Source: Nitrospirota bacterium
Lineage (GTDB): Bacteria; Nitrospirota; JACRHL01
Length of the DNA: 64,000 bases
Assembly: GCA_016212085.1 (NCBI GenBank)
Contig: JACRHL010000006.1
Span: 62,001-126,000 of the forward strand
Reading direction: 5' to 3'
In this document: in pieces, positions 39,985 to 53,744 of the stretch
Numbering within the stretch: the first letter of the stretch is position 1
How the letters are laid out: each line of letters opens with the position of its first letter
Program-made: the position numbers and the translations under genes
The notes under the pieces: generated by a model
Database searches by the model: none
What the model saw: only the letters and a program-made list of their open reading frames with translations
Told to the model about the DNA's origin: nothing

Positions 39985-40019
39985 GGTTGGCGCTGAATGC
40001 AACGAAGCCCAACGGGGGA
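39985..40019. repeat. Repeat family 3 half-unit
   Basis: TTGGCGCTGAATGCAACGAAGCCCAACG matches the left arm of the element at 40780-40921 with one change. Only half a unit is present. It lies just upstream of the toxin-antitoxin pair. Confidence 0.6.
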
Positions 40020-40063
40020 GGGGAATGCGGTGCCGGAATGCGCCGGGCACCGATGGGGACGTG

Positions 40064-40092
40064 TTGACGACGTGTATGCTACGTGGTACACA
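40064..40092 (+). promoter_or_regulatory. Promoter and palindromic operator of the toxin-antitoxin operon
   Basis: TTGACG (40064-40069), a 17-bp spacer and TACACA (40087-40092). The inverted repeat GTGTA (40072-40076)/TACAC (40087-40091) overlaps the -10, a good place for autorepression by the antitoxin. Confidence 0.55.
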
Positions 40093-40109
40093 TGTATCAT
40101 GTGCGGGGC

Positions 40110-40466
40110 ATGGTGAATCCAGGCGGCATCAAGAAGCTCCCGGCGGCGTTCTACCGCAACGCCAACGGCGTGGAGCCGGTGCGGGAGTGGCTCAAGGGCC
40201 TTCCGGTGGCGGACCGCCACGCCATCGGGCGTGACGTGGCGGTGGCCGAGTTCGGCTGGCCGGTGGGCATGCCCGTGTGCCGCTCCCTGGGCAATGGCCT
40301 GTGGGAGATCAGGAGCACCCTGCCCGGCGGCCGCATCGCGCGCATCCTGTTCTGCGTGGCCGACGGGCGCATGGTGCTGCTGCACGGCTTCCACAAGAAG
40401 ACGCAAAAGACGCCCGAGGCGGATATCAAGCTGGCGCACAAGCGCATGAAGGAGGTTGCACGGTGA
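40110..40466 (+). CDS. RelE/HigB-type toxin (phage-derived Gp49-like)
   Basis: 118 residues of the RelE/ParE superfamily, Gp49/HigB branch. The landmarks EPVREWLKGLP, LGNGLWEIRSTLPGGRIARILF and LLHGFHKKTQKTPEADIKLAHKRM are typical and include the C-terminal basic residues thought to act in ribosome-dependent mRNA cleavage. ATG 40110 is preferred; the earlier ATG at 40083 would lie inside the predicted -10 region. The stop overlaps the GTG start of the antitoxin (GTGA). The toxin-first order is typical of HigBA. Confidence 0.87.
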   Translation: MVNPGGIKKLPAAFYRNANGVEPVREWLKGLPVADRHAIGRDVAVAEFGWPVGMPVCRSLGNGLWEIRSTLPGGRIARILFCVADGRMVLLHGFHKKTQKTPEADIKLAHKRMKEVAR

Positions 40467-40762
40467 GCAAGGGCACGATCGGTTCCGGTTTTGACGATTT
40501 TCTGCGGGAGGAGGGTATTTTCGAGGAGGCGGAGGCGTCCGCCATCAAGCGGGTGCTGGCGTGGCAGCTCAAACAGGCCATGGCAAGCGGCCACGTGAGC
40601 AAGGCCGAGATGGCCCGCCGCATGCACACCAGCCGCTCCCAGCTCGACCGCCTGCTGGACCCGGACAACGCCAAGATCCAACTCGACACCGTCCTGCGCG
40701 CCGCCGAGGTGCTGGGCAAACGCCTCAAGCTGGAACTGGTGGACGCGGAGCGGGCGGCGTAG
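40463..40762 (+). CDS. HigA-like XRE-family antitoxin
   Basis: 99 residues with a helix-turn-helix (VSKAEMARRMHTSRSQLDRLLDPDN at about 45-70) after an acidic N-terminal segment. It overlaps the toxin gene by four bases and has GGAGG about 8 nt upstream. Antitoxins of this class bind the toxin and repress the operon through a palindrome such as the one at 40072-40091. The HTH part resembles the C-terminal part of the HicB-like protein at 53762-54187, a modest shared ancestry. Confidence 0.87.
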   Translation: MSKGTIGSGFDDFLREEGIFEEAEASAIKRVLAWQLKQAMASGHVSKAEMARRMHTSRSQLDRLLDPDNAKIQLDTVLRAAEVLGKRLKLELVDAERAA

Positions 40763-40779
40763 CGGCGGGCGGTTTTTCC

Positions 40780-40921
40780 GGTTGGCGCTGAATGCAATGA
40801 AGCCCAACGGGGGGCGCTGGCGCCGGGGTCTGGCGGGATGGCTCGGTGTCGGGATGGGCGCTGGAACCGTGAACGGGGGAGCGGGGATGTTGGGCTTCGC
40901 GGGGCTTGGCCCGACCTACGG
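40780..40921. repeat. Repeat family 3, left copy (inverted partner of 41766-41868)
   Basis: It starts with a 31-bp sequence (40780-40810) that occurs perfectly inverted at 41837-41867. It ends with GTTGGGCTTCGC...CGACCTAC, the mirror of the right copy's start. The two copies frame the A/T-rich gene between them. Confidence 0.75.
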
Positions 40922-40936
40922 GCTGAGTTATGGTTT

Positions 40937-41620
40937 TTATTGTTTGGTTAATCCTTTTTTAACTCGGTACATAATGTCGACGTTAGTTGCTTTAATAACT
41001 TCTATTCTCGACCCCTTGAAACCAATCAACGCCCCACCGTTACCATCCATTTCATATTTCACATCCTGTGTGAATGCTGGCCGTGCCATGTCATCTTTAT
41101 ACTCTCGGTATGACACGCTTATTCCTGTTCCAACTATACCCTGATAAAGTAGCTCGATCTTGAAACCTTTTTCAGTGCCGGACGTGCTCACGGTGCTCTC
41201 GTATCCAACGCCACTTGTCAGTGGTGTCCAACCACCCATAACAGACGATAGATTCAATGTCCTATCAAATGAACCATCATTGTCACTATCTGACAGGCAT
41301 GGATAGGTGTCGCCAAGCGAGTAGTGCGCTGGACAGTAGGATTCGATTCCATCGATGAGAACCCCATCGAAAACCGTGCCAGCTTGATAACTCTTGTTAG
41401 AAACGGTTATAGGCTCACTTATCCTAGCGGCTGGTGTTTGTGTGTAGTCATACTCGGTATAGAGTACACCCCCGACATCCACTTTACTTACAGTGTCCGT
41501 GTCAGGACTAGCTCCACGACGCCATTCTGAAAGCGCTGTTAATGACGGCATGGATACGCATGCCTCCAAAGTCATTGCGAACGACAACGCAACAATGAGT
41601 AGTAATTGTGATAAAGGCAT
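40937..41620 (-). CDS. Orphan low-GC putative lipoprotein
   Basis: 227 residues of unknown family. The N-terminus is a signal-like segment (PLSQLLLIVALSFAMTLEAC) ending in a possible lipobox LEAC. The rest is Ser/Thr/Gly-rich and beta-prone, with a DSDNDGSFD segment resembling a single Ca2+-binding loop and ending GLTKQ. GC is near 45%, far below the neighbours, and the gene is framed by inverted copies of repeat family 3, so it looks horizontally acquired. ATG 41620 is the start that gives a proper signal peptide; longer starts add unlikely residues. Confidence 0.7.
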   Translation of the reverse strand: MPLSQLLLIVALSFAMTLEACVSMPSLTALSEWRRGASPDTDTVSKVDVGGVLYTEYDYTQTPAARISEPITVSNKSYQAGTVFDGVLIDGIESYCPAHYSLGDTYPCLSDSDNDGSFDRTLNLSSVMGGWTPLTSGVGYESTVSTSGTEKGFKIELLYQGIVGTGISVSYREYKDDMARPAFTQDVKYEMDGNGGALIGFKGSRIEVIKATNVDIMYRVKKGLTKQ

Positions 41621-41765
41621 AATAGCTTGTCCTTTTACGAAAAAGACGGGTCCAGGTCCACTACTCGTAAATCCACCCCGCATACCCACTGGCCGCGTCG
41701 CGTTGCTCTGCCCAGACTACGGGTTCAACCGTCGAAATGCAAAGCTATGCCATGCGTTGTTAGCG
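41621..41765. other. Upstream region of the orphan lipoprotein gene
   Basis: No gene supported. A/T-rich near 41570-41640, then rising to genomic GC before the right copy of repeat family 3. Confidence 0.35.
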
Positions 41766-41868
41766 CGTAGGTTGGGCAGAGCAAACGCGAAGCCCAACGC
41801 CCACCCGGCCCGCCACGGGGCGCCCGCACCCGGAAGCCGTTGGGCTTCATTGCATTCAGCGCCAACCT
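41766..41868. repeat. Repeat family 3, right copy
   Basis: It runs from GCGTAGGTTGGGCAGAGC through CGAAGCCCAACGCC to a 31-bp arm (41837-41867) perfectly inverted relative to 40780-40810. A full unit of the same family is at 51962-52068. Confidence 0.75.
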
Positions 41869-51961: not shown

Positions 51962-52068
51962 CGTAGGTTGGGCAGAATGCAATGAAGCCCAACACGCCCA
52001 CGGCCTGTGCTACGCTGCGGGCCTGGCGGATGTTGGGCTTCGCGGTGCTCTGCCCAACGGGCTGCCAT
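51962..52068. repeat. Repeat family 3, complete unit next to the reverse transcriptase locus
   Basis: GTAGGTTGGGCAGAATGC...GAAGCCCAACACGCC at the left and ATGTTGGGCTTCGCGGTGCTCTGCCCAAC at the right form an imperfect inverted repeat. It marks the boundary where GC falls sharply into the reverse transcriptase locus. Confidence 0.7.
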
Positions 52069-52424: not shown

Positions 52425-53744
52425 ATGACCAAACCCGACAAGACTTGGTTTAGAGTCCGGCGCTACCTCCATTTTGATGAACCGGTTCGAAGGGAAGTGG
52501 TCGAGGCACTCGTTCAGTCTCCAGAAAGAGTTCGGAAACACTCATTTCTTCCGTTTATCGCATATAACATAGAGACAAGGACATCCAAAATAAACAAGAA
52601 GACTGGCGAAAGGAAAAAAATCCGCCCAATTCGGTATGCAAGCCACATTGATTCACACGTTTATGCCTACTATTCTAAACGCCTAGCTGAAACGTATGAA
52701 TCCATAATACGCGACACACCTCTAAACAAGGTTGTGCTAGCATTTCGACCGCTCGGAAAAACAAATATTAACTTTGCACACGAAGCGTTTCTCGATATCC
52801 ATGAGCGCGGTTCATGTTGTGCAATCGCAATGGATGTTTCCGGTTTTTTCGATAATCTAGATCACGCAATTTTGAAAAATCGCTGGGCCACGATGCTGGG
52901 GAAATCTCGCCTTCCAGATGACCACTACGCAGTATTTAAGTCCCTAACGAAGTATGCATATATCGAAAAAAGCGCCATTTTAACTGAATTAGGGATTTCA
53001 CCACACAATCCGCGAAAAAACGGAAGGAAACGCCTGTGTTCTCCTGATGTTTTTCGAAGAAAGATACGAGATGCGGGGCTTATACAAGTACATCGTGTAA
53101 ATAAGGGTATTCCGCAGGGATCGCCAATAAGCGCTATTCTTTCAAATATCTACATGACCGTTTTCGATGGGTCTTGTTGCGACCTGGCAACTCGCCTAGG
53201 TGGAAGCTACCGAAGATACTGCGACGACATACTGTTCATCTGTGGTAACGAACACAAGGACGTCGCTGTAGATGATATTCAGCGATTCATCCAGGAGCAC
53301 AAGCTCGAAATAAACAAAGAAAAAACGAATGTCTCCGAGTTCACGAACTGTGGGACCGACGCCCCCCCGTTTTCAGTGGCAGGCGTTGACAAACCCCTGC
53401 AATATCTTGGGTTCATGTTTGATGGCCAAAGACGAACAATTCGGTCATCATCGCTTGCGAAATTTGCCCGCAAAATGAAAAAGGCAGTTCGCGCGGCCAA
53501 AAGAGCACAACACAAAGCTAACAATATCCGGGCAAAAAACGGACTCGCAGATACGCTACTGTTTAAGAGAAAGCTTTATCGAAGATACTCTTACATCGGG
53601 AAGCAAGGCTTCGTCCCATATGGCATTCGATCAGCCGAAACGATGGACTCAACCGCAATACGAAAACAAATAAAACCTTTGTGGAAAAGGCTACGAAATG
53701 AAATAGACGGAAATTCTGTCGACACGGATTTTGAGAACAAGTAA
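52425..53744 (+). CDS. Reverse transcriptase, probable anti-phage DRT2 (UG2) type
   Basis: 439 residues. Palm motifs are MDVSGFFDNLDH (catalytic D137), IPQGSPISAILSNIYM (229 onward) and RYCDDILF (YCDD at 265-268), followed by LQYLGFMFDG (RT motif 7 region) and a basic C-terminal region (KFARKMKKAVRAAKRAQHKAN). There is no integrase, maturase X/HNH or retrotransposon domain, so this is not a group II intron RT. The YCDD variant, solitary RT and structured upstream RNA fit DRT2 defence systems. AAGG precedes the ATG by about 7 nt. GC is near 43%, far from neighbours, indicating horizontal transfer. Other UG/DRT classes or an unusual retron remain possible. Confidence 0.82.
   Translation: MTKPDKTWFRVRRYLHFDEPVRREVVEALVQSPERVRKHSFLPFIAYNIETRTSKINKKTGERKKIRPIRYASHIDSHVYAYYSKRLAETYESIIRDTPLNKVVLAFRPLGKTNINFAHEAFLDIHERGSCCAIAMDVSGFFDNLDHAILKNRWATMLGKSRLPDDHYAVFKSLTKYAYIEKSAILTELGISPHNPRKNGRKRLCSPDVFRRKIRDAGLIQVHRVNKGIPQGSPISAILSNIYMTVFDGSCCDLATRLGGSYRRYCDDILFICGNEHKDVAVDDIQRFIQEHKLEINKEKTNVSEFTNCGTDAPPFSVAGVDKPLQYLGFMFDGQRRTIRSSSLAKFARKMKKAVRAAKRAQHKANNIRAKNGLADTLLFKRKLYRRYSYIGKQGFVPYGIRSAETMDSTAIRKQIKPLWKRLRNEIDGNSVDTDFENK

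Follow-up and report, generated by a model that had tools for sequence, protein, structure and literature searches.

GTAG-type REPINs at the edges of low-GC foreign genes, among them a phage-type lipoprotein gene, in a Nitrospirota genome

In this work we have examined a low-GC gene that lies between two inverted repeats in a 64,000-nt stretch of DNA from a Nitrospirota bacterium (contig JACRHL010000006.1, positions 62,001 to 126,000; this stretch is called the window, and positions given without a prefix are numbered within it). The flanking repeats are REPINs, that is, inverted pairs of GTAG-type REPs, and in the sampled part of this genome their placement is not independent of foreign genes and is far from random. 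The repeats themselves are of a known kind, and what appears unusual is their concentration and their orientation at foreign islets, in a phylum otherwise apparently without this repeat. REPs have been known for decades and their role for the genome is unsettled. We tentatively prefer to read the REPINs as marking the borders at which foreign genes were taken up or exchanged, while granting this reading not quite an even chance; the possibility that REPINs landed at foreign genes already in place is a close rival, just behind it.

The outer arms of the two repeats (40780-40810 and 41837-41867) are 31 nt long, are separated by 1026 nt and are 100% reverse complementary, as originally predicted. 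A 30-mer of the arm has three matches in the window with up to 3 mismatches, against 0.00 expected from shuffled sequences. Each flank is in itself an inverted REP pair, with the inner REP opposed to the outer one. The left REPIN (40780-40922, minus strand) has an A arm outside (40780-40808, plus) and a C arm inside (40889-40919, minus), with a spacer of 80 nt, and the right REPIN (41764-41867, plus strand), which folds as one long bulged hairpin (z -2.78), has its C arm inside (41767-41798, plus) and its A arm outside (41839-41867, minus), with a spacer of 40 nt; these two spacers belong to separate spacer groups. The enclosed gene is a predicted lipoprotein ORF (40937-41620, minus strand), across which GC drops from ∼0.69 to 0.47-0.54, the whole islet being 1,120 bp of 52% GC in a window of 69% GC. 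There is no transposase among the ORFs between the repeats, a point on which the original prediction was right, and no target-site duplication could be seen by eye at their outer edges. Upstream of the left REPIN we found a solitary A-type REP (39985-40013, plus strand, or to 40014 as a 30-mer match), with one mismatch to the flanking copies, and a toxin-antitoxin pair formed by a Gp49-like (RelE/ParE-type) toxin ORF (40083-40466, plus; Pfam PF05973, 79.5 bits) and an HTH antitoxin-like ORF (40463-40762, plus; PF13560 E 2.3e-4 and HigA E 0.006, both below cut-off). The order over 39985-41867 is then REP, toxin-antitoxin pair, REPIN, lipoprotein ORF and REPIN. The window holds a further REPIN (51963-52062, minus strand), whose C arm is turned towards a low-GC DRT2 reverse transcriptase ORF (52425-53744, plus strand; PADLOC Drt2 E 4.9e-172, RVT_1 E 4.3e-22).

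The repeat has the build of a GTAG-type REP, a GTAG (or GTGG) head with an imperfect palindrome, repeated in the genome: we counted 13 A-type copies within 3 mismatches and 9 GTAG-headed copies. The outer A-type arm has the sequence GGTTGGCGCTGAATGCAATGAAGCCCAAC and the inner C-type arm is headed by GTAG, the full head being lost from the outer A arms at the lipoprotein locus. Inverted REP doublets with a short spacer form both flanks of this locus, and genome-wide the inner core is intact in 12 such doublets; single cores are present at C2, C3, C20 and C22, and a reversed control pattern likewise gave 4 matches. In an FRG locus (L356, 776-866) we saw a GTAG doublet whose sequence belongs to a further family. 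For comparison, Nunvar and colleagues give GTAGGTTGGGCTGAGCTTGCGAAGCCCAAC as the RAYT-flanking REP of Coxiella burnetii, and the REP/RAYT family has been in print since 2010 (PMC2817692). Our repeat is close in sequence to this type (GTAGGTTGGGC...GAAGCCCAAC) and shares with it the GTAG head, the imperfect palindrome, the inverted pairs, the intergenic position and the presence of several copies, and the arrangement of the pairs is that of BIMEs or REPINs. However, it differs from the C. burnetii-type REP/RAYT system in its few copies, in that no RAYT was found in the genome, and in that it is concentrated where low-GC foreign islets begin or end, one of its arms being turned to the cargo.

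Among 395 genomes of the phylum, the window's own is the only one in which the REPIN core was detected (0 of the 394 others), and the core doublet was absent from the three other genomes of the same class. In the named genome collection, at least 117 stretches contain the core doublet, and the 80 that were listed come mostly from Gamma- and Betaproteobacteria. Taxa with a GTTGGGC REP and many sequenced strains include Pseudomonas oryzihabitans, Denitromonas and Pseudoxanthomonas. No match to the 105-bp REPIN was obtained in the phage collection or in the plasmid collection, and the core was present in two viral contigs, one of which (L127) resembles a true GTAG doublet. The cognate RAYT of a RAYT-driven REP system was not found in the genome, which is 99.25% complete: the RAYT/Y1 transposase profile (PF01797) gave 0 matches, and a RAYT-like ORF from an Andreprevotia contig (L168), used as a tblastn query, had no match in 1.03 Mb of it. 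In Andreprevotia this ORF lies between two REPINs of the family described here and scores 20.8 bits with PF01797, for a cut-off of 23. According to PMC3733652, REPtrons may have been lost from some REP-bearing species, so repeats without a RAYT can still be REPs.

The enclosed gene had been described as A/T-rich and of unknown family. The first holds, with 46% GC (GC3 41%) in the longer reading from an upstream GTG (40937-41689); the ATG at 41620, which gives a protein of 227 amino acids, is the more likely start. The second does not, as the protein matches the phrog_1353 profile with an E value of 7.6e-21 (residues 33-248 of 250, profile positions 8-227 of 230), there being no match in Pfam, NCBIfam or PADLOC. 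As judged from its sequence, the gene is a divergent, horizontally acquired member of the predicted phrog_1353 phage lipoproteins. Relatives were detected by tblastn in 34 phage records (from Klebsiella, Salmonella, Acinetobacter, Moraxella and Microcystis) and 14 plasmid records, and 138 of 140 candidate viral-contig stretches, of which the best 80 were kept, encode one. The aligned relatives have in common an N-terminal signal segment, a cysteine and the C-terminal motif YRE..DMARPAF...GFKG. Cys21, which follows a predicted helix at residues 3-18, is kept in 7 of 7 sequences of one alignment (A1) and in at least 90% of the 21 of another (A2). In these three traits the protein is like other phrog_1353 proteins, such as STM2726 of phage Fels-2, but its identity to 20 relatives is 24-31% (A2), it has a Glu at lipobox position -2, which departs from the consensus, and its gene is chromosomal and outside any recognisable prophage.

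In the 31 viral loci that were scored, the GC of the homologous gene fell below that of the locus in 27, equalled it in 2 and exceeded it in 2, which fits an accessory phage gene. Furthermore, the Fels-2 homologue lies between a gpA-like gene (A) and Q, and the gpA-Q interval is described in PMC9122126 as a hotspot of anti-phage systems in P2-like phages. Unlike the genes of that hotspot, the gene studied here is alone and REPIN-edged. From this phage setting, a fair guess is that the product would be an envelope lipoprotein of the lysogen, possibly excluding other phages. The AlphaFold2 model (mean pLDDT 84.4) predicts an N-terminal helix followed by an all-beta part. None of its fold matches was confident, the lowest Foldseek E values being 0.057 (PDB) and 0.017 (viral set) and the best VIA match, a DUF1608 domain with Z 7.3, being in a range said to be common, and a sequence search of the PDB gave nothing better than E 0.6.

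The association of REPINs with foreign DNA was analysed in 1,029,006 bp, 38% of the genome, which comprised all 12 intact-core doublets and large stretches of three contigs; as it was picked to hold every such doublet the sample is not random, the search for islets within it being uniform. Islets were defined as at least 700 bp below 57% GC, and association as a REP within 250 bp. A REP was found at 8 of 16 islets, and 8 of the 12 intact-core REPINs were within 250 bp of an islet, a distance within which only 4.36% of intergenic positions fall according to a crude ORF-based mask. Against this null, P is 5.5e-9 for 8/12 REPINs and 1.9e-9 for 8/11 REP clusters. The cluster count becomes 8/12 if a single REP with 7 substitutions at C4:64565, which we left out, is included. 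The original prediction was to fall if the repeat turned out to be of a common REP type and to have been placed without regard to the gene; it is indeed REP-type, and its placement, with 8 of 11 clusters at islets, is not independent. The intact-core REPINs away from islets, three at C4:54 kb and one at C18:24-25 kb, lie in GC-rich DNA, and so does another doublet, at C16:281 kb, which has a longer spacer and is likewise distant from islets. The three at C4:54.0-54.5 kb (L023 6036-6525) are in tandem, and two of their spacers are nearly identical (Z 11.8).

REPs stand on both sides of four islets (C4:62.0-62.9 kb, C16:167.1-168.5, C15:348.1-349.5 and the lipoprotein locus) and on one side only of four others. 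In the islet at C15:348.1-349.5, a degraded single REP with 7 substitutions (348999-349029) is located between an FRG gene and a small lipoprotein gene and looks like the joint of two units. Defence-type HMM matches were obtained in five of the eight REP-edged islets: the DRT2 gene of the window, PDC-S06 with AAA_13 (E 2.7e-83), FRG/PDC-S15 in two islets (E 4.6e-67 and 1.1e-101) and AbiGi (Pfam 27.1 bits, cut-off 22.4). Two of the remaining three hold proteins without matches and the third is the lipoprotein locus. Among six proteins from 5 of the 8 REP-free islets, the PADLOC matches were a weak one of effector type (2.1e-8) and one for a HerA fragment (2.8e-4), so that with REP-free islets partly covered the data suggest an excess of defence genes at REPIN-edged islets. 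At C15:50-82 kb several REP-free islets of low GC follow one another, with a 979-aa effector-like protein, a HerA-like fragment and others; this is probably a genomic island of another kind.

To score orientation we compared each arm with the arm consensus, the islet always being set on a given side. Of the 12 islet-side REPINs, 11 have the C arm turned towards the islet (two-sided P 0.006, a value that assumes full independence of the REPINs, which holds only in part), two of the 12 calls resting on degraded inner arms (14 against 10), and the bias is present at both the 3' and the 5' side of the cargo ORF. The spacers distinguish the histories of the REPINs. At the lipoprotein locus the arms are identical over 31 nt and the spacers are unrelated (Z -0.5); the right spacer matches those at C18:24310 (Z 8.1) and C16:66400 (Z 8.0), and the left one those at C16:281260 (Z 5.9) and C15:348122 (Z 5.2). 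Arms that are shared, with unrelated spacers that each resemble REPINs elsewhere, indicate that the left and right REPINs arrived separately. In none of the four islets with REPs on both sides do the two end spacers match (Z -0.5, 0.5, -2.1 and 1.9), which shows that such ends did not arise by duplication of a single terminal repeat.

Outside this genome the association is weak in Gamma- and Betaproteobacteria. Among 95 REPINs in the 80 proteobacterial loci listed, a flank whose GC is lower than the local value by more than 0.08 occurs in 5.3%, versus 2.2% of random places, and in four genomes (42 REPINs) the corresponding numbers are 3/15, 1/4, 1/18 and 2/5, the surroundings being mostly ordinary. 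Six further genomes are represented by the loci L138, L160, L166, L168, L183, L200 and L152 of the listed set. FRG genes are present in 33 of 369 genomes of one class, and a REPIN-like element was found in 1 of 30 FRG loci with a detector that misses many (it found 3 in three test loci of our own genome that hold more). The interval has the gene order DUF2784, toxin-antitoxin pair, lipoprotein and SLOG. The SLOG gene was matched in 40 of 61 genomes, and with five window proteins as queries no shared neighbours, and thus no syntenic relative or empty site, were found near it in 29 short loci of relatives (∼1.5 kb on each side). A site in Pseudoxanthomonas could be followed further. In strain sp. 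3HH-4 (L138), a CBASS cyclase gene (E 4.9e-162) downstream of a tRNA-Leu ends ∼40 bp before a REPIN. In seven Pseudoxanthomonas relatives the conserved flank is kept and the neighbouring genes differ: in L308 a different low-GC ORF precedes the outer half of that REPIN, and L306 has a degraded REPIN, so that in L138, L308 and L306 a whole, a half and a degraded REPIN lie ∼200-360 bp from the same conserved flank with different cargo. In L307 the tRNA is kept and the junction repeat (∼1370-1470), which closes off yet other cargo, belongs to a separate GTAG family (GTAGGATGGGTTGA...), and the four others (L309-L312) have no GTTGGGC REP core at the site. This looks like cargo exchanged up to a REP border, though integration on the tRNA side could account for it.

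On the border reading, which we tentatively prefer, the REPINs of this lineage are small mobile repeats, probably spread earlier by a RAYT transposase. Incoming DNA would have been attached to REPINs already in place, or have recombined with them, next to the C arm. The REPINs would mark the limits of single-gene insertions or exchanges and would probably be involved in these events. The rival that comes closest, to which we give a somewhat lower but still serious probability, is that a RAYT inserted REPINs genome-wide and that those at the edges of foreign genes, where insertion is tolerated, survived, having come after the cargo and having had no role in its movement. The unrelated spacers at the two ends of an islet, the spacers shared between distant loci and the failure to find a RAYT in the genome are all consistent with such a landing, as are GTAG REPs lying near the 3' ends of ORFs, where they can supply stop codons (PMC3733652); stop codons supplied by REPs were read by eye at C4:62799 and C15:349453. 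However, landing gives no reason why an islet should have the same arm turned to it from either side (11/12), nor why one REP border should be kept with different cargo, as in Pseudoxanthomonas. Moreover, PMC3390384 reports that mobile genes of the P. fluorescens group lie in REP deserts, which is the opposite of what we find and speaks against landing.

A stronger version of the border reading, in which the REPINs would be docking borders for single foreign genes in an integron-like uptake without an integron integrase, we consider unlikely. In it, a RAYT-type single-strand endonuclease or hairpin recombination would link incoming DNA to the C arm at its GTAG end, which would yield scattered, REPIN-edged gene islets, mostly of defence type. 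It is also doubtful, and somewhat more so, that REPIN, passenger and REPIN form a transposable unit. Such a unit would be a REPtron in which a passenger has taken the place of the transposase gene, and a RAYT acting in trans would move it. Mobile insertion cassettes offer a comparison for such a unit. The inverted, mirror-image REPIN ends of three of the four doubly edged islets point to it, as do the RAYT-like ORF between same-family REPINs in Andreprevotia and the report that RAYT genes are always flanked by inverted REPs (PMC2817692). The lipoprotein locus resembles a REPtron, a RAYT gene between inverted REPs, in having a gene between inverted REP pairs, but that gene encodes a phage lipoprotein and not a transposase, and the REP pairs differ in spacer; furthermore, in half of the edged islets the second side lacks a REPIN, and no RAYT was found in the genome search or in the 1.03-Mb sample. 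The composite mobile cassette originally proposed therefore stands as a foreign gene bounded by repeats, while a transposon-like cassette is not supported, the two ends being different REPINs (Z -0.5). A composite transposon or mobile insertion cassette was rejected as the main reading because duplicated ends, as copies of one element, would not carry unrelated spacers. Finally, we rejected as very improbable a reading of the loci as integron-like cassettes whose attC would be the repeat. The inner cores of the form RYYYAAC...GTTRRRY (the attC-type core motif), the mostly single-gene, defence-like cargo and the long bulged hairpin of the right REPIN would lend themselves to it. It is opposed by the findings that IntI (TIGR02249) had five partial matches, none over the cut-off, with 14 of 14 control genomes also giving matches below it, that the conserved parts are the outer GTAG arms and not the core alone, that the ends are inverted and not direct in three of the four doubly edged islets, and that the loci are scattered without an array.

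We found no description of REPIN-edged foreign genes in the titles and opening parts of abstracts of the open-access literature, and in the accessible part of a recent survey (PMC12306157) the terms genomic island, horizontal, defense and prophage are not mentioned. REPINs that edge foreign and largely defence-type genes are the reverse of the REP deserts reported for mobile regions of Pseudomonas. If the REPINs are borders of acquisition or exchange, they could be used to search for defence genes and would suggest a function of RAYT-type enzymes that experiments can address. In the window, the end of the second REPIN (52062) and the start of the DRT2 gene are separated by a gap of 363 bp, with room for a non-coding RNA, such as DRT2 systems carry.
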